From positions 62,001 to 126,000 of the forward strand of contig NZ_MWQH01000001.1 in the NCBI RefSeq assembly GCF_002210295.1: a stretch of 64,000 bases of DNA, written 5' to 3'. The DNA is from Fibrobacter sp. UWB5 (GTDB lineage Bacteria; Fibrobacterota; Fibrobacteria; Fibrobacterales; Fibrobacteraceae). Positions 9,789 to 30,750 of this stretch are shown here, one piece after another (the stretch's first letter is position 1; each line of letters opens with the position of its first letter). The translations under genes and the position numbers were made by a program. Below the pieces are notes generated by a model. The model did not search any database. It saw only the letters and a list, made by a program, of their open reading frames with translations, and was not told the origin of the DNA.

Positions 9789-11195
9789 ATGGCTAAAATC
9801 GCTAAAGTTTGGGCTCGTCAGATCCTGGATTCCCGTGGCAATCCGTCTCTCGAAGTCGATGTTACTCTTGACAACGGTATCGTTGGTCACGCTGCTGTTC
9901 CGAGTGGTGCTTCCACCGGCGAACGCGAAGCTTGCGAACTCCGCGACGGTGACAAGAAGACTTACTGCGGTAAGGGCACTCTCACTGCTGTGAAGAATGT
10001 GAACACCAAGATTGCTAAGAAGATCATCGGCATGGATCCGTCCAAGCAGACTGAAGTTGACGACGCCATGATCGCTCTCGACGGCAACCGCATGCTCAAG
10101 AACAAGCTCGGTGCAAACGCCATCCTCGGCGTTTCCATGGCTGTTTGCGTTGCTGCCGCTAAGGACGCTGGCCTTCCGCTTTACCAGTACATCGCCAAGC
10201 TCCATGGCACCAAGAAGCTCACGCTCCCGTGCCCGATGTGCAACGTGATCAACGGCGGTGCTCACTCCTCCGCTCCGATCGATTTCCAGGAATTCATGAT
10301 CGCTCCGGTTGGCGCAAAGACTTTCTCCAAGGGCCTCCAGATGGTCACCGAAATCTTCCACGCCCTCAAGGCTGTGTTGAAGAAGGCCGGCTTCGACACC
10401 ACCGTTGGTGACGAAGGTGGCTTCGCTCCTGGCGTTTCTATCAAGCCGGCTAAGAACAAGTTCGGTTACGAAATCACTGGCGTGATGACCCTCGAAAAGG
10501 CTCTCGACGCTTTGAAGGCTGCAACCACCAATGCCGGTTACAAGTTCGGCACTGACATCAAGATCGCTCTTGACGTTGCTTCCTCTGAATTCTGCGACAA
10601 GAACACCAAGGCTGGCAAGCCGGAAACCTACACCTTCAAGAAGAGCACCAAGAAGACTGTAAAGTCTGCCGACATGGTGAAGCTCTACGAAAAGCTCATC
10701 GACAAGTACTCCATCTTCTCCATTGAAGACGGTCTCGACGAAGCTGACTGGGCTGGCTGGAAGGTCATGACCGACAAGCTCGGCGGCAAGATCAACCTCG
10801 TGGGTGACGACCTGTTCGTTACCAACCCGACCATCTTCGACGAAGGCATCAAGGCTGGCATCGCCAACGCTATCCTCATCAAGGTGAACCAGGTGGGTTC
10901 TGTGTCCGAAACTCTCGCTGCTATCAAGCGCGCTCAGAACGAAGGCTATGCTCCGATCGTTTCTCACCGCTCTGGCGAAACCGAAGACACCTTCATTGCT
11001 GACCTCGCCGTCGGTACCGCCGCTGGCCAGATCAAGACCGGTTCTCTCTCCCGTACGGACCGCGTTTGCAAGTACAACCGCTTGCTCCGCATCGAAGAAG
11101 AACTCGGCAAGGCTGCCGTGTACGCCGGTGACCCGCGCAAGGCTTGCAAGGCCCCTGCTAAGAAGGCCGCTTGCAAGAAGTGCTGCAAGAAGTAA
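9789..11195 (+). CDS. eno: Enolase with a Lys/Cys-rich C-terminal extension
   Basis: Enolase interconverts 2-phosphoglycerate and phosphoenolpyruvate in glycolysis. All hallmarks are present: [32 protein letters not shown], the Mg-binding acids ([29 protein letters not shown]), the catalytic lysine in [10 protein letters not shown] and the signature [18 protein letters not shown]. The body ends near residue 447 with GDPR. About 20 further residues ([18 protein letters not shown]) contain four cysteines and eight lysines and are absent from typical ~430-residue enolases. The start follows an AGAAGG site. Codon use is strongly biased (CTC, AAG, GGC), as expected for a highly expressed gene. Confidence 0.98.
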
Positions 11196-21860: not shown

Positions 21861-23540
21861 ATGAAGAAGTTTGTTATTTGGGCGATTGCCGCGGTACTTT
21901 TGCATGCGCCAGTTTTTGCCGTGGGCCTAGTAAAACAGTCAATCGATACGACCGATGCGATGGCGACTCTCGGCAATTATGATCGCGGATTCTATACACC
22001 GCAGGTGTTGCATTTGAAACCTTCGGGCAGCAAGCCAATTGAAAAGCCGTATGGCAAGCTGTTGCACTTGCGTGCGGAAATTTCGGAATTCAGCAGCAAC
22101 GCATGGCTTTCGATTGACACGACCGGCGGAAAGCGCGATACGGTGCGCGGCGTGAGCCAGGACCTGACCGAAGACGCCCTGAATGTTTTGCAGACAACGT
22201 TTGACAACATTCGCAAAAATAACGGCTACGTGATTGTGCGCATCTGTTACGATCCGTGGTACAACGGACGCAGTAATGTGACTCCCGAACACAAGTGGGT
22301 AATGCGTCATGTGGAACAGCTCGCTCCTGTGCTCTCGAAGAATACCGACGTTATCGTGGCGCTCGAGATGGGAATGCACGGTGCCTACGGCGAGATGCAC
22401 AGCGACACGAACATCACCTACGACCGCATTGCCGAGGCGACGAACCTGATGCTGCGCAGTACGCCGCCCGAACTCAAGATTCTCACGCGCACGGGAAACT
22501 ATTCAGCGAAGGTGCTGGGCTTTGACAACTGGGGCGTCGACTTCCATATCGACGGCGATAAATTCAAAGAAATCGCGAAGGCGAAGGGCGACACCATGTA
22601 CCGTGTGGGAATGTTCAACGACGGCTATTTAGGAACGCAGTACGATTACGGCACTTGGGGCGCGGATTGTGCGACGTCTATCTGCCGCGAAGAAGGGGTG
22701 GCCTGGCTCGAAAAGTACAGCATCAACACGCCTTACGGCGGCGAGGCGCTTACGACAGCAGAAAATTATCAGGTCATCAATACACCAGAGTTCTTGGCAT
22801 ACGAAGGCTTCCGCACGCATACGAGCTACCTGAACATTCAGTGGAACAACAAGCTGATTGACAGTTGGAAAAAGACTCCGTTCAAGCAGAAGGATTTCGA
22901 TTATGACCCAGCGCGAGTCGATTCGCTTTCGGGTTTCAAGTACATCAATGACCACTTGGGCTATCGTTTTGTACTGCGCGAATCGTGGATGAGCGATACC
23001 GTAGGGGACGACGGAATTTTACGTGCGAAACTCCGCATTCAGAACGTGGGCTTTGGCAATTTGACATGGAATGCACCGGTGAGGCTTGCCATTTTAACAG
23101 ACCTGGAAGGTACCGGTTTGTTGGAGTGCCCTATGCCGACTTATTACGACCTGCCGGACATTGATTCCCGTGATATCCATAGCCGAACTATATTGATTGC
23201 AGGTGGCGATACTGTGATGACGTTCGACGGAAATAACGAAATTGAAATTTTGACCAAATTAAATATACGAGGCAAAGGACGTTACCAAGTGTTCTTGAAG
23301 GTGGGCGAGGTTCAATTTGCCAACAGTAAGCGTGTGGGTGGCGGAACATGTGGCGACGAGCAGCCTGCCGCCTATTTGGGCAAAATCTACTATGACGAAA
23401 ATGTCAAATCATCGATTCCGCGCGCCCTCCCAGCTGCGGCACAAAAGAAGAACGCCCCCTTCGTGCAGAGGGAACGCCTCAATGCAATTATCCGCGATGG
23501 CAACAAGCGCTACCGCGCCAATGGTGCGACTAGCCGTTAA
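21861..23540 (+). CDS. Exported DUF4874/DUF4832 protein
   Basis: The 559 residues include a signal peptide (1-20, ending APVFA). The N-terminal part (about 35-190, including YDRGFYTPQ and VIVRICYDPWYNG) resembles DUF4874, and the following region (to about 470) resembles DUF4832. Together they form a TIM-barrel-like enzyme family often found with polysaccharide genes; no reaction is established. Acidic residues in ALEMGMHGAYGEMHSD could form an active site. A C-terminal beta-sandwich (RIQNVGFGNLTWN onward) completes the usual layout. GAAGGGGGC precedes the ATG. The last 11 bases overlap the end of convergent rpe. Confidence 0.75.
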   Translation: MKKFVIWAIAAVLLHAPVFAVGLVKQSIDTTDAMATLGNYDRGFYTPQVLHLKPSGSKPIEKPYGKLLHLRAEISEFSSNAWLSIDTTGGKRDTVRGVSQDLTEDALNVLQTTFDNIRKNNGYVIVRICYDPWYNGRSNVTPEHKWVMRHVEQLAPVLSKNTDVIVALEMGMHGAYGEMHSDTNITYDRIAEATNLMLRSTPPELKILTRTGNYSAKVLGFDNWGVDFHIDGDKFKEIAKAKGDTMYRVGMFNDGYLGTQYDYGTWGADCATSICREEGVAWLEKYSINTPYGGEALTTAENYQVINTPEFLAYEGFRTHTSYLNIQWNNKLIDSWKKTPFKQKDFDYDPARVDSLSGFKYINDHLGYRFVLRESWMSDTVGDDGILRAKLRIQNVGFGNLTWNAPVRLAILTDLEGTGLLECPMPTYYDLPDIDSRDIHSRTILIAGGDTVMTFDGNNEIEILTKLNIRGKGRYQVFLKVGEVQFANSKRVGGGTCGDEQPAAYLGKIYYDENVKSSIPRALPAAAQKKNAPFVQRERLNAIIRDGNKRYRANGATSR

Positions 23541-24180
23541 CGAGTTTCACGAATTCGCGGCACACGGCTTCGGGATCGCTCTTGCCGAAGATGGCGGAGC
23601 CTACCACGAAGATGTTTGCGCCGGCTTCCTTGCAGGCGAGGATGTTGTCGAGCTTGACGCCGCCGTCAATCTGGATGTTGAGTTCCGGCTTGAGGGCGCG
23701 GAGTTCGCGAATCTTGTCAAGGCAATAGGGAATCAGGCTCTGGCCGCCGAATCCCGGGTTCACCGACATAATCAAGACCATGTCCACGATGTCGAGCACG
23801 TACTTGATGCTTTCGAGCGGGGTTGCCGGGTTGATGGCCACGGCGGGCTTCACGCCGAGTTCGGCAATCTGGTGCAGCAGACGGTCCAGGTGGTTCGTGG
23901 TTTCGGCGTGCACGCTGATGAGGCTTGCGCCGGCTTTTGCAAATTCGCCCACGTAGTTCTCGGGGTTTTCGATCATCAGGTGGCAATCAAGCGGGAGCTT
24001 GGTTCCCTTGCCCACGCAAGCCGAGATGCCCGGGCCAAAGCTGATATTTGGGACAAAGTGTCCGTCCATGATGTCGAGGTGAACAAGGCCGGCGCCACCG
24101 TTTTCGATAGCCTTGAGGCCGTTGCCGAGTTCGAGGAAATTTGCGTTCAACACGCTAGGGGCGATAATTTGCTTGAGCAT
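23530..24180 (-). CDS. rpe: Ribulose-phosphate 3-epimerase
   Basis: This enzyme interconverts ribulose 5-phosphate and xylulose 5-phosphate in the pentose phosphate pathway. The 216 residues carry the family motifs: APSVLNANF, HLDIMDGHFVPNISFGP (metal-binding His and Asp), LDCHLMIENP, SVHAET and MSVNPGFGGQSLIPYCLDKI, plus IDGGV. Its stop overlaps the end of the convergent DUF4874 gene by 11 bp. No Shine-Dalgarno site is visible. A TATATT box on the minus strand ends 6 nt before the start codon. Confidence 0.97.
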   Translation of the reverse strand: MLKQIIAPSVLNANFLELGNGLKAIENGGAGLVHLDIMDGHFVPNISFGPGISACVGKGTKLPLDCHLMIENPENYVGEFAKAGASLISVHAETTNHLDRLLHQIAELGVKPAVAINPATPLESIKYVLDIVDMVLIMSVNPGFGGQSLIPYCLDKIRELRALKPELNIQIDGGVKLDNILACKEAGANIFVVGSAIFGKSDPEAVCREFVKLVNG

Positions 24181-24192: not shown

Positions 24193-24257
24193 GCAAAACT
24201 AGACAGGTTGAAAAAAATTTACTATTATTGGCGCCAAACAAAGCAAGGAGATCAACA

Positions 24258-24740
24258 ATGTCTAAAGGAACAAAAACTGTAGTTGCCAAGGCCGCCGCCA
24301 AGAAGGTTGCCGCTAAGGCTGCTCCGAAGGCCGCCGCTAAGCCGGCTGCCGAAAAGAAGGCCCCGGCCAAGAAGACCGCTGCTAAGCCGGCCGCTGAAAA
24401 GAAGACTGCCGCCAAGCCGGCTGCCAAGAAGGCTGCTCCGAAGGCTGCCGCTAAGCCCGCTGCCGAAAAGAAGGCTCCCGCTAGCGCTGCCAAGAAGACC
24501 GCTGCTAAGGCTCCCAAGAAGGTGACGGTTGTGTTCGAAGCCAACTGCCCGCTCGCAACGACCGTGTCTGTCGCAGGTTCCTTCAACAACTGGGCTGTCG
24601 ACAAGGACATGCTCAAGAAGGACAAGAAGACTGGTCTTTGGACTGGCAAGATCACCCTCGATGCTGGCGATTACGAATACAAGTTCGTTTGTGATGGCCA
24701 GTACTGGGACGAAGGCGACAACAAGGTCAAGCACGTCTAA
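24258..24740 (+). CDS. Lys/Ala-repeat protein with AMPK-beta-like glycogen-binding domain
   Basis: The 160-residue protein has two parts. Residues about 8-90 are repeats of AAAKPAAEKKAPAKK type, resembling histone-H1-like bacterial tails. Residues about 92-160 form an early-set/CBM48 domain of the AMPK-beta type (VSVAGSFNNWAVD, LDAGDYEYKFVCDGQYW), which in other proteins binds glycogen or starch. No enzyme domain is present. The ATG at 24258 follows AAGGAG (24244-24249). Downstream is a terminator and upstream is the divergent rpe. A role in tethering glycogen to nucleic acid or to the nucleoid is a guess from the two halves. Confidence 0.85.
   Translation: MSKGTKTVVAKAAAKKVAAKAAPKAAAKPAAEKKAPAKKTAAKPAAEKKTAAKPAAKKAAPKAAAKPAAEKKAPASAAKKTAAKAPKKVTVVFEANCPLATTVSVAGSFNNWAVDKDMLKKDKKTGLWTGKITLDAGDYEYKFVCDGQYWDEGDNKVKHV
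24282..24520 (+). repeat. Lys/Ala/Pro-coding low-complexity repeat
   Basis: The region encodes imperfect repeats of AAAKPAAEKK and KKAAPKAAAK type. The DNA is rich in GCC/GCT AAG codons and could change length by slippage. Confidence 0.7.
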
Positions 24741-24765
24741 TCCCTTTTTTTGGTTAGTTTATCGG

Positions 24766-24795
24766 AAGGTTCCAGGCGACTGGGACCTTTTTTTA
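24766..24795 (+). terminator. Terminator after the glycogen-binding-domain gene
   Basis: AAGGTTCCA with TGGGACCTT (imperfect) is followed by TTTTTATTTTT. Confidence 0.75.
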
Positions 24796-24820: not shown

Positions 24821-25354
24821 ATGAAAAAAATGATTGCCGTTATTTTGTTTGCTTTATGCTCGATTGCGTTTTCTCAACCCTGTGAGCGGACCGATCGAGT
24901 ATCTGGGGAATGCGCTAGTGATACGCTTTCTGTCGCGGTTTCCGACAGTGCCTTGTACTACGAAGAAATGTCTGCCAAGCTGAAAACCGAAGGCGAACAA
25001 TTGTTGGAAGACTATGTTGACGACATTGTTGCCGGCGTATTTTTGGGAACTCTCGGTGCTGTCGGAACCATATGGAGCGTTAGCGCTTCTTCAGGCGCTT
25101 CCTTAGAGGGTGGTGGCGTTTTAGTCGTGTTTATCATGGCTCCTAGCGCGTGCCTCTTGATGGGCGGTGTTTTCGGTGTCGCTGGCGGCATAGGGAAGGG
25201 TATCAGAGGAAACAGGATGCTGGAACAGTCCGAAGAGTACAAGAATTCGGCAGAAAGATTCCGGACAAAGTCGCAGCAGGTAAAAGTGGATTTTGTTCCG
25301 TTGCTCAATCCGCTGACCAAAACGGTGGGCATGGATTTAGCGCTTAAGTTTTAA
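24821..25354 (+). CDS. Small exported or membrane protein of unknown function
   Basis: No family was recognised in these 177 residues. Residues 1-18 are a signal peptide (KKMIAVILFALCSIAFS). A Cys pair follows in CERTDRVSGEC. Two Gly-rich hydrophobic segments lie near 66-84 and 94-117 (AGVFLGTLGAVGTIW, LVVFIMAPSACLLMGGVFGVAGG), followed by a basic Lys/Arg patch and a charged helix (EQSEEYKNSAERFRTKSQQ). This suggests a short membrane hairpin with both ends in the periplasm. The gene is bounded by terminators on both sides. Confidence 0.65.
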   Translation: MKKMIAVILFALCSIAFSQPCERTDRVSGECASDTLSVAVSDSALYYEEMSAKLKTEGEQLLEDYVDDIVAGVFLGTLGAVGTIWSVSASSGASLEGGGVLVVFIMAPSACLLMGGVFGVAGGIGKGIRGNRMLEQSEEYKNSAERFRTKSQQVKVDFVPLLNPLTKTVGMDLALKF

Positions 25355-25509: not shown

Positions 25510-26772
25510 ATGGCAAACTATTCTATTCCTCAAGACGTTTTTGTGAAGGCTGCCGATCAGTACGGCACTCCGCTCTGGATTTATGACCGCGCTACGATTG
25601 AAAAGTGCGTGAAGGATGTCCAGGTATTTGACACCGTTCGCTTTGCTCAGAAGGCATGCCCGAACCTTTCCGTGGTTTCGCTTATCCGTAAGCTTGGCTG
25701 CGTCGTTGACGCCGTTTCGGCCGGCGAAATCGTCCGCGCCCTCAAGGCCGGATTCAAGGGCGGCCAGCAGAAGGGCAAGGCTCCCGAAATTGTCTACACC
25801 GCAGACATCTTCGACAAGGATGCTCTTGAACTCGTCAAGAAGTACGATATCGCCGTGAACGTGGGCTCTCCGGACATGATCCAGCAGCTCGCTGATTTCG
25901 GCGTGAAGTCCGAACTCACCATCCGCGTGAACCCGGGCTTTGGCCACGGTCATTCCCGCAAGACCAACACCGGTGGCGATCTTTCCAAGCACGGCATCTG
26001 GCACGAACAGATCAAGGACTGCATCAAGCTCGCTCAGGCTAACGGCATGTGGATCACGGGTTTGCACATGCATATCGGTTCCGGCACGGACTTCGAACAC
26101 CTCGCACAGGTTTGCGACGCCATGGTCGACGCCAGCCGTCGCCTGGGCTCTCACTTGCGCACCATCAGTGCAGGGGGCGGCCTCCCGATTCCGTATCACG
26201 AAGAAGACAAGGGCAACCGCATCGACGTGAACGCTTACTACAAGCTGTGGGACGATGCCCGCAAGCGCATTCAGCAGAGCATCGGCCACGAGGTTCACTT
26301 GGAAGTGGAACCGGGTCGTTACCTGGTGGCCGAAAGCGGTTACCTGATGGCCGAAATCCGCGCCGTCAAGAAGCAGGGCGACAACCTGTTCTACCTGGTA
26401 GACGCCGGCTTTACCGACCTCGTTCGCCCGAGTTTCTACGGTAGCTACCATGCTATTTCGATTATTGCCCGCGACGGTCGCGAACTGAACGAAACGGTGG
26501 ACGCCGTTGTGGCTGGCCCGCTCTGCGAATCCGGTGACGTGTTCACGCAGGAAGAAGGCGGCTTTGTGGTGACCCGCAAGCTCCCGAAGGCCCAGGTGGG
26601 CGACCTCCTGGTTCTGCATGATGCCGGTGCCTACGGTGCCGCCATGAGCAGCAACTACAACAGCCGTCGCTACGCCGCCGAAACCATGTACACCAAGGGT
26701 GAACTGAAGGTCGTGCGCGAACGCCAGACTTTTGAACAGCTCATGCAGAACGACCGCATTATCGATCTATAA
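25510..26772 (+). CDS. lysA: Diaminopimelate decarboxylase
   Basis: LysA removes CO2 from meso-diaminopimelate to give lysine, using pyridoxal phosphate. The ATG at 25510 (MANYSIPQDVF) gives 420 residues, normal for the family; an upstream in-frame TTG adds a non-homologous Cys/Arg-rich stretch. The PLP lysine lies in FAQKACPN. Other motifs are VVDAVSAGEI, HMHIGSGTD, SAGGGLPIPY, LEVEPGRYLVAESG and GPLCESGDVF (catalytic Cys), and the end has DAGAYGAAMSSNYNSR. No clear Shine-Dalgarno site was found. Codon bias (CTC, AAG) marks it as well expressed. Confidence 0.96.
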   Translation: MANYSIPQDVFVKAADQYGTPLWIYDRATIEKCVKDVQVFDTVRFAQKACPNLSVVSLIRKLGCVVDAVSAGEIVRALKAGFKGGQQKGKAPEIVYTADIFDKDALELVKKYDIAVNVGSPDMIQQLADFGVKSELTIRVNPGFGHGHSRKTNTGGDLSKHGIWHEQIKDCIKLAQANGMWITGLHMHIGSGTDFEHLAQVCDAMVDASRRLGSHLRTISAGGGLPIPYHEEDKGNRIDVNAYYKLWDDARKRIQQSIGHEVHLEVEPGRYLVAESGYLMAEIRAVKKQGDNLFYLVDAGFTDLVRPSFYGSYHAISIIARDGRELNETVDAVVAGPLCESGDVFTQEEGGFVVTRKLPKAQVGDLLVLHDAGAYGAAMSSNYNSRRYAAETMYTKGELKVVRERQTFEQLMQNDRIIDL

Positions 26773-29231: not shown

Positions 29232-29771
29232 ATGTTTACTAAAAAAGTTATTCTTCCTGTTGCTGCTCTTGCTATGACCGCTCTCGTGGGTTGCGGTGAC
29301 GACAGCTCTTCTAGCCCGGCTTCTAAGGAAGCTCCGGCTACCTTGAAGCAATTTTTTGACACAAAGGATGTCGCTTGCTCCGCAACGGACAATATGTGTG
29401 CTAAGATTTATATCGAAGAAGATCTGAAGGACACTGTCCAGTGCAATGGTACTTCTTGGGAAATGATGCTTTTCGGTAAGCCGGTTACTGGCTGCGAAAA
29501 TGCTGCTCCGGCTGCCGAAACTCCGGCTGACCCGGCTGCCGAAACTCCGGCTGATCCGGCTGCCGAAACTCCGGCTGATCCGGCCGCTGAAACTCCGGCT
29601 GATCCGGCTGCTGAAACTCCGGCTGACCCGGCCGCCGAAACTCCGGCTGCTGGTGGTGCAACCTGCTACATGGCAAGCGATATTCCGGGTATGGCTGAAT
29701 GCATTCCGGTTACCCAGGATCAGTGCGCAACGATCGCGGGCGAATGGGTTGAAGCTTGCCCGGTGAACTAA
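29232..29771 (+). CDS. Lipoprotein with AAETPADP tandem repeats and Cys module
   Basis: This 179-residue lipoprotein has the signal MFTKKVILPVAALAMTALVGC. Residues about 35-90 form an N-terminal domain with cysteines (VACSATDNMCAKIYIEEDL, VQCNG, PVTGCE). Residues about 94-133 are 8-residue repeats AAETPADP. A C-terminal module follows (ATCYMASDIPGMAECIP, then CATIAGEWVEACPVN). AAGGAG precedes the ATG. The N-terminal domain is clearly related to that of the next gene, so this is a local duplication. Function unknown; a cell-wall-spanning spacer is plausible for the repeats. Confidence 0.8.
   Translation: MFTKKVILPVAALAMTALVGCGDDSSSSPASKEAPATLKQFFDTKDVACSATDNMCAKIYIEEDLKDTVQCNGTSWEMMLFGKPVTGCENAAPAAETPADPAAETPADPAAETPADPAAETPADPAAETPADPAAETPAAGGATCYMASDIPGMAECIPVTQDQCATIAGEWVEACPVN
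29511..29651 (+). repeat. 24-bp tandem repeats coding AAETPADP
   Basis: Five full units run head to tail from 29511 to 29630 and a partial sixth follows. Units differ only at synonymous third positions. Confidence 0.9.
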
Positions 29772-30006: not shown

Positions 30007-30750
30007 ATGCTTAACAAAAAAATCATCCTTCCTATTGCCGCCTTTGCAATGGCATCGTTCGTTGCTTGCGGTGATGACAGTTCCTCTTCTGGCACTGCTG
30101 CTAGCAGCAATCCCGCTAATAACAGCAATGTTCCGGCAAGTGTTCAAACGCTTGAAGAAGCGATCAATCTTGCTTGTTCTTCGACCGAGAATATGTGCGC
30201 CAAGGTATATGTGGAAGAAGATGCCGATACCGTACAGTGCGATGGAACAATCTTTACTCCGATGATGTTGGGCAAACCGGTTGATGGTTGCAAGAATAAG
30301 GCTTCGGCAGACACTCCTGCTGATTCGGAAAACAAGACGCCTGCTGCAGAAGAACCTGCTGGCGATGAAAAACAACCCGCTGGCGAAAATCCGGGTGCCG
30401 GTAAGGAACCTGCCAATCAGGGTGGCGACGAAGAAACTGTCGACCTGGGTGGTGGCGCCGGTGAAGAAGGTGCTGAACCGGGTGAAGGCAAAGAACCTGC
30501 CGGCCCTGGTGCAGGCGAAGAACCCGCCGGCCCTGGCGCTGGTGAAGAACCTGCCGGCCCTGGCGCAGGCGAAGAACCTGCCGGCCCTGGCGCAGGCGAA
30601 GAACCCGCCGGTCCGGGTGCAGGTGAAGAACCCGCCGGTCCTGGCGCAGGTGAAGAACCCGCCGGTCCTGGCGCAGGTGAACAACCTGCCGATCAAGGTG
30701 CAGGCGAACAACCCGCTGAACAGGGTGCAGGTGAACAATCTGCTGAATAA
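30007..30750 (+). CDS. Lipoprotein with GAGEEPAGP tandem repeats
   Basis: This 247-residue lipoprotein has the signal MLNKKIILPIAAFAMASFVAC. Residues about 45-97 resemble the N-terminal domain of the upstream gene (LACSSTENMCAKVYVEED, VQCDG, LGKPVDGC). The rest is low-complexity: a Lys/Ala/Pro/Glu spacer, then ten 9-residue units of GAGEEPAGP type that run to the stop codon. The C-terminal Cys module of the neighbour is absent. AAGGAG precedes the ATG. The protein is very acidic. It is a paralogue of the preceding gene with a replaced C-terminal half. Confidence 0.8.
   Translation: MLNKKIILPIAAFAMASFVACGDDSSSSGTAASSNPANNSNVPASVQTLEEAINLACSSTENMCAKVYVEEDADTVQCDGTIFTPMMLGKPVDGCKNKASADTPADSENKTPAAEEPAGDEKQPAGENPGAGKEPANQGGDEETVDLGGGAGEEGAEPGEGKEPAGPGAGEEPAGPGAGEEPAGPGAGEEPAGPGAGEEPAGPGAGEEPAGPGAGEEPAGPGAGEQPADQGAGEQPAEQGAGEQSAE
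30481..30747 (+). repeat. 27-bp tandem repeats coding GAGEEPAGP
   Basis: Ten units, the last shortened to 24 bp. Units 2-7 encode the exact consensus; the last three change EE to EQ and PAGP to PADQ, PAEQ and SAE. The array stops exactly at the stop codon. Confidence 0.9.

Follow-up and report, generated by a model that had tools for sequence, protein, structure and literature searches.

Within the window, the whole 64,000-nucleotide stretch analyzed here from a 3.36 Mb genome of the rumen bacterium Fibrobacter, we identified a short gene on the + strand (24258..24740; ATG start, TAA stop) coding for a 160-aa protein that joins a Lys/Ala-rich tail to a CBM48 domain. The closest public records were Fibrobacter succinogenes MAGs. 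Upstream of the gene, a consensus scan detected a promoter-like site (TAGACA, 17 nt, TATTAT; 24200..24228, +; score 10/12), which alone is no proof of function, and a ribosome-binding site, AAGGAG (24245..24250, +), is followed by the ATG 7 nt further on. Downstream, a terminator-like hairpin of the intrinsic type (12-bp stem, then a T run; 24764..24791, +) closes the transcription unit. As the gene has its own promoter-like site, ribosome site and terminator-like hairpin, solo transcription is possible. The frame is a real gene, because its domain half evolves under purifying selection (dN/dS 0.03-0.25); together with conservation of the protein and the terminator, this ruled out a spurious or chance ORF. 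By inspection, no signal peptide was present at the N-terminus of the 160-aa protein, which was therefore taken to be cytosolic.

Codon usage was assessed by CAI against a codon table derived from 23 ribosomal-region ORFs. The gene had a CAI of 0.80 (ribosomal median, 0.76) and ranked second among 50 genes of the window, for which the median was 0.50; its domain half by itself reached 0.83. This ribosomal-like codon bias suggests that the protein is abundant. The highest CAI in the window (0.88) belonged to another ORF, at 9789-11195 (+).

The folded part of the protein, residues 87-160 (24516..24737, +), is a CBM48/AMPK-beta glycogen-binding-type domain. It matched PF16561 (AMPK1_CBM; E=6.6e-9, 36.3 bits, above the curated cut-off of 26.8) and PF02922 (CBM_48; E=2e-7, 31.7 bits, above the curated cut-off of 22.4), the latter scoring 32.8 bits in the genome-wide search. 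The beta domain was confident in the AlphaFold model, for which the best PDB matches in Foldseek were AMPK-beta carbohydrate-binding modules, 6c9g_B and 1z0m_B (probability 1.00; TM 0.71 by length of 1z0m_B). Alignment to AMPK beta1 placed W112 (codon 24591..24593, +) opposite W100, K142 (24681..24683, +) opposite K126 and W150 (24705..24707, +) opposite W133, three residues whose mutation lowers glycogen binding in AMPK (PMC2642990). Among 82 tailed orthologues, the FNxW motif bearing W112 was kept in all (and was invariant in A1), as was the YK motif bearing K142; the Trp at position 150 was kept in 81. The preliminary description had read the aromatic positions as intact. This holds for W112 and W150 (with K142), but the C-terminal loop that bears AMPK L146 and T148 is deleted in alignments of Fibrobacter and close genera. 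Within the stretch YKFVCDGQYW that it had singled out, only the Trp of QYW is conserved; most relatives have Asn in place of the Tyr. With the loop absent, affinity for glycogen may be reduced or altered.

Loss of this canonical loop, visible in the alignments, is the reason to consider that the domain has acquired another ligand and no longer binds glycogen. We regard such a change as very improbable, given that W112, K142 and W150 are all retained and that same-synteny orthologues in other genera of the family still have the loop. A canonical-type loop was present in 23 of the 82 tailed orthologues, all of them from other genera or families.

The N-terminal tail, residues 1-86 (24258..24515, +), is rich in Lys, Ala and Pro. 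It consists of 29% Lys, 43% Ala, 10% Pro and 0% Arg, with a net charge of +22, and contains four KPAA and three AAKPAAEKK units; these counts agree with the basic AAAKPAAEKK-repeat tail initially described. In-frame tandem repeats of 12, 15, 24, 27, 39 and 45 bp build the tail. It is disordered in the AlphaFold model (pLDDT <50 across most of residues 7-79) and, being Lys/Ala/Pro-rich and free of a folded DNA-binding domain, is of the same kind as the tails of PhaF, PhaM and AlgP. A search of the same genome for the tail gave nothing else that was convincing, which ruled out Lys/Ala tails as a genome-wide habit. Profiles of histone H1-like proteins scored below their curated cut-offs (HC2, PF07382, 18.3 bits against 40; the Burkholderia H1-like family NF038053, 24.9 bits against 80).

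Over the 82 proteins, the tail ranges from 26 to 111 aa and its sequence drifts as well, yet every tail is 20-40% Lys, is nearly free of Arg and is net positive, a pattern that fits selection on charge and composition. Besides DNA, polycationic tails bind RNA and polyphosphate as well as membranes and acidic proteins. It could be argued that the protein merely coats glycogen granules: the CBM48 domain would anchor it, the tail would act as an electrostatic brush (or bind RNA or ribosomes) that keeps glycogen particles soluble and dispersed, and any contact with the nucleoid would be incidental. Conservation of charge and composition over sequence and length, disorder of the tail and apparently high expression as judged by CAI are all consistent with a coat, and effects of surface charge on granule fusion were also discussed by the authors of the AlgP study (PMC9239181). 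However, Lys without Arg, KPAA-like repeats and very low acidity are features of known DNA-binding H1-like tails, a composition that a simple brush would not require, and we consider a coat of this type unlikely.

The fusion is not an oddity of a single genome. A locus search retrieved 79 loci, 55 of which were Fibrobacter-type, and the tail and CBM48 domain were fused in all 55. Together with the composition counts and Pfam scores, this recurrence bears out the two-part anatomy, a basic tail plus a glycogen-binding-type domain, first noticed in the preliminary description; the observation is real. A search of the phylum gave matches of some kind in 144 of 168 genomes, many of them to GlgB-sized enzymes. 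The fusion was kept in every intact Fibrobacterales orthologue examined; among short matches, it occurred in all genera examined from the family, in another family belonging to the order and also in one family of the class. The remaining families had a different N-terminus, either an anti-sigma-like zinc finger followed by a membrane segment or almost nothing. Five such proteins from other Fibrobacterota families (L125, L142, L148, L150 and L152) carry a Cys-rich N-terminus of the anti-sigma type (zf-HC2-like, named by eye), a membrane segment and CBM48, and this fusion is possibly a glucan-sensing anti-sigma factor. In addition, a MAG from sheep abomasum, RGIG5144, contains two differing tailed CBM48 genes (L038 and L047), which are either true paralogues or the result of a mixed assembly.

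In most genera, the gene lies between divergent rpe and lysA. In the window, these neighbors are rpe, coding for ribulose-phosphate 3-epimerase (23530..24180, -; PF00834), and lysA, coding for diaminopimelate decarboxylase (25510..26772, +; TIGR01048, 362.7 bits, cut-off 297.9); a polyamine role for the downstream decarboxylase was ruled out by its identity as lysA. Both are housekeeping genes, and no glycogen genes were found in the conserved neighborhood. An additional ORF at 24821-25354 (+) codes for 177 aa with a signal-like N-terminus, a membrane segment and no Pfam match. It separates the tailed gene from lysA in some Fibrobacter genomes, is missing in others and evolves fast (38-50% identity where found). 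Elsewhere in the window, two lipoprotein-like ORFs (29232-29771 and 30007-30750, +) contain long tandem repeats of ETPADPAA and EEPAGPGAG units.

CBM48 and related domains frequently target enzymes to alpha-glucan, and the protein might likewise serve as a recruitment scaffold, its tail gripping an acidic partner enzyme (e.g., glycogen synthase or phosphorylase) that CBM48 would deliver to the granule. Glycogen synthases and phosphorylase, which turn glycogen over, are highly expressed in strain S85 (PMC6204037), which speaks for such a function. Nevertheless, the tail has no conserved motif for a specific partner and the conserved neighborhood contains no glycogen gene, leaving a scaffold with little probability.

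The same design was also detected in another phylum, the one that includes Lentisphaerota strain zth2, where 165 of 388 genomes had matches at E<=1e-14, mostly short stand-alone proteins. Lys/Ala/Pro tails of 50-83 aa were present in approximately 14 of the proteins examined from this phylum, a number that gives no rate, as these proteins were picked for longer frames. In Bacteroidota, no Lys/Ala tail was found among the short CBM48 proteins examined. Occurrence of the fusion in other phyla, raised at the outset, is thus confirmed for the Lentisphaerota-containing phylum, but not for Bacteroidota among the short proteins examined. In the domain tree, the Verrucomicrobial tailed clade nests among tail-less relatives. 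With the full set, placing all tailed proteins in a single clade lowered the log-likelihood by 131 and was rejected, but this set includes short tails dispersed among tail-less rows; a cleaner test with two compact clades was borderline (p 0.06), and the 75-90 columns of the domain alignment limit the power of such tests. Because the full set rejects one clade but the two-clade test is borderline, a second, separate origin of the design is suggested rather than proven. A ~440-aa ORF beside four of the Verrucomicrobial tailed genes was rejected as a conserved neighbor; it is Gly-rich, has no Pfam match and is likely an antisense artefact.

Only two proteins in the genome matched CBM48, the tailed protein and one of ~750 aa that is GlgB-like by size and domain layout. 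Genome searches gave no matches for PPK1, PPK2 or PHA synthase (PhaC), which makes polyphosphate or PHA an unlikely target. In F. succinogenes, glycogen can make up as much as 70% of dry weight and is cycled in every phase of growth (PMC10308913). Continuous storage and degradation also bear on the idea of a glycogen-responsive nucleoid protein, i.e., an H1-like DNA binder whose CBM48 domain senses alpha-glucan, so that sequestration on glycogen would couple storage to transcription or compaction of the chromosome: under such cycling, glycogen would provide scant on/off signal. The H1-like tail with its weak HC2 and Burkholderia H1-like matches, the use of the same domain for glycogen sensing in AMPK (PMC2642990) and the ribosomal-like codon bias would suit this function, but the protein offers only a non-specific tail without known DNA-binding fold, and we find the idea rather improbable.

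Taken as a whole, these data lead us to propose, with about an even chance of being right, that the protein is a cytosolic, two-handed tether between glycogen granules and the nucleoid, analogous to PhaF, PhaM and AlgP; glycogen and DNA binding, abundance and a role in positioning are all inferred. The folded CBM48 end would be seated on the surface of intracellular glycogen granules, and the disordered polycationic tail would contact the phosphate backbone of the chromosome in a non-specific manner, as has been reported for the KPAA tails of PhaF and AlgP. With many copies per granule, granules would be held apart, spread along the nucleoid and shared between daughter cells. Such tethering could avert both polar collapse of glycogen, which can reach most of the dry weight, and displacement of the chromosome. 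Such displacement is known from csrA mutants of E. coli, where old-pole glycogen keeps the chromosome out and division comes to an end (PMC4836754). Several observations count against a tether: the tail varies widely in length, down to about 26-30 residues at its shortest; the L146/T148 loop is missing; the conserved neighbors are housekeeping genes; and tails of such charge bind other things. The broader proposal, a dedicated and abundant glycogen-chromosome tether that represents a new kind of positioning protein, arose in a high-glycogen lineage and originated a second time from the same modules in another phylum, is somewhat less probable.

The preliminary description had suggested a possible bridge between polysaccharide granules and nucleic acid, and had not recognized it from described families. 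The bridge itself is partly supported, as it is in line with the evidence and has close functional precedents. Novelty holds for the glycogen version only, since PhaF, PhaM and AlgP had been overlooked (PMC13052382, PMC9239181): granule-binding proteins with such tails are already known, and glycogen as the target is new. We found no paper on this protein or a bacterial glycogen-nucleoid tether in a literature search.

In a 2025 review of how organelles are positioned in bacteria, tethers are listed for PHB and polyphosphate, but glycogen goes unmentioned (PMC13052382). Misplaced glycogen nevertheless has consequences, bringing cell lineages to an end in one mutant of E. coli (PMC4836754). The Fibrobacter protein is possibly the first candidate in bacteria for a factor that positions glycogen granules and distributes them, and since it is only 160 aa long and its parts can be separated, such a function can be tested directly in E. 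coli laboratory strains. It could also provide a modular part for positioning alpha-glucan particles. If the proposal is true, the Lys/Ala tail would emerge as a tether that is re-used with a variety of storage polymers.

Comparison with known proteins places these features in context. Bacterial H1-like proteins (HC2, Burkholderia) have a similar Lys/Ala/Pro tail, but the likeness is compositional, with profile scores below curated cut-offs, and to our knowledge these proteins have no carbohydrate-binding domain. The short stand-alone CBM48 proteins of Verrucomicrobiota/Lentisphaerota, Bacteroidota and other Fibrobacterota have the same domain in a separate small protein; unlike the Fibrobacter protein, most are nearly or completely tail-less or else have a membrane segment and an N-terminus of the anti-sigma type, whereas Lys/Ala tails of 58-83 aa occur in a subset from the Lentisphaerota-containing phylum. 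The glycogen-binding domain of AMPK-beta has the fold and the W100/K126/W133 equivalents in common with it (PMC2642990), whereas the Fibrobacter protein lacks the kinase-binding part and the L146/T148 loop and has gained a polycationic tail.

PhaM, PhaF and AlgP are the nearest working counterparts, each combining a granule-binding part with a histone-like tail that attaches non-specifically to DNA and spaces the granules along the nucleoid (PMC13052382, PMC9239181, PMC3574117). AlgP of Pseudomonas aeruginosa, needed for even spacing of polyphosphate granules (PMC9239181), likewise has a disordered KPAA-repeat tail of H1-like composition, but its target is polyphosphate, for which the Fibrobacter genome has no PPK1/PPK2 match, and its other domain is helical. 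The Pfam scan detected neither a phasin nor an AlgP N-terminal domain in the Fibrobacter protein, CBM48 being present instead. PhaF of Pseudomonas putida and PhaM of Cupriavidus necator likewise consist of a granule-binding domain and a disordered, Lys-rich histone-like tail, which binds DNA and attaches PHA granules to the nucleoid (PMC3574117, PMC13052382). In these two proteins the tail is C-terminal and PHA/PHB is bound by phasin-type helices, whereas in the Fibrobacter protein the tail is N-terminal and the granule-binding part is a CBM48 domain of the alpha-glucan type.
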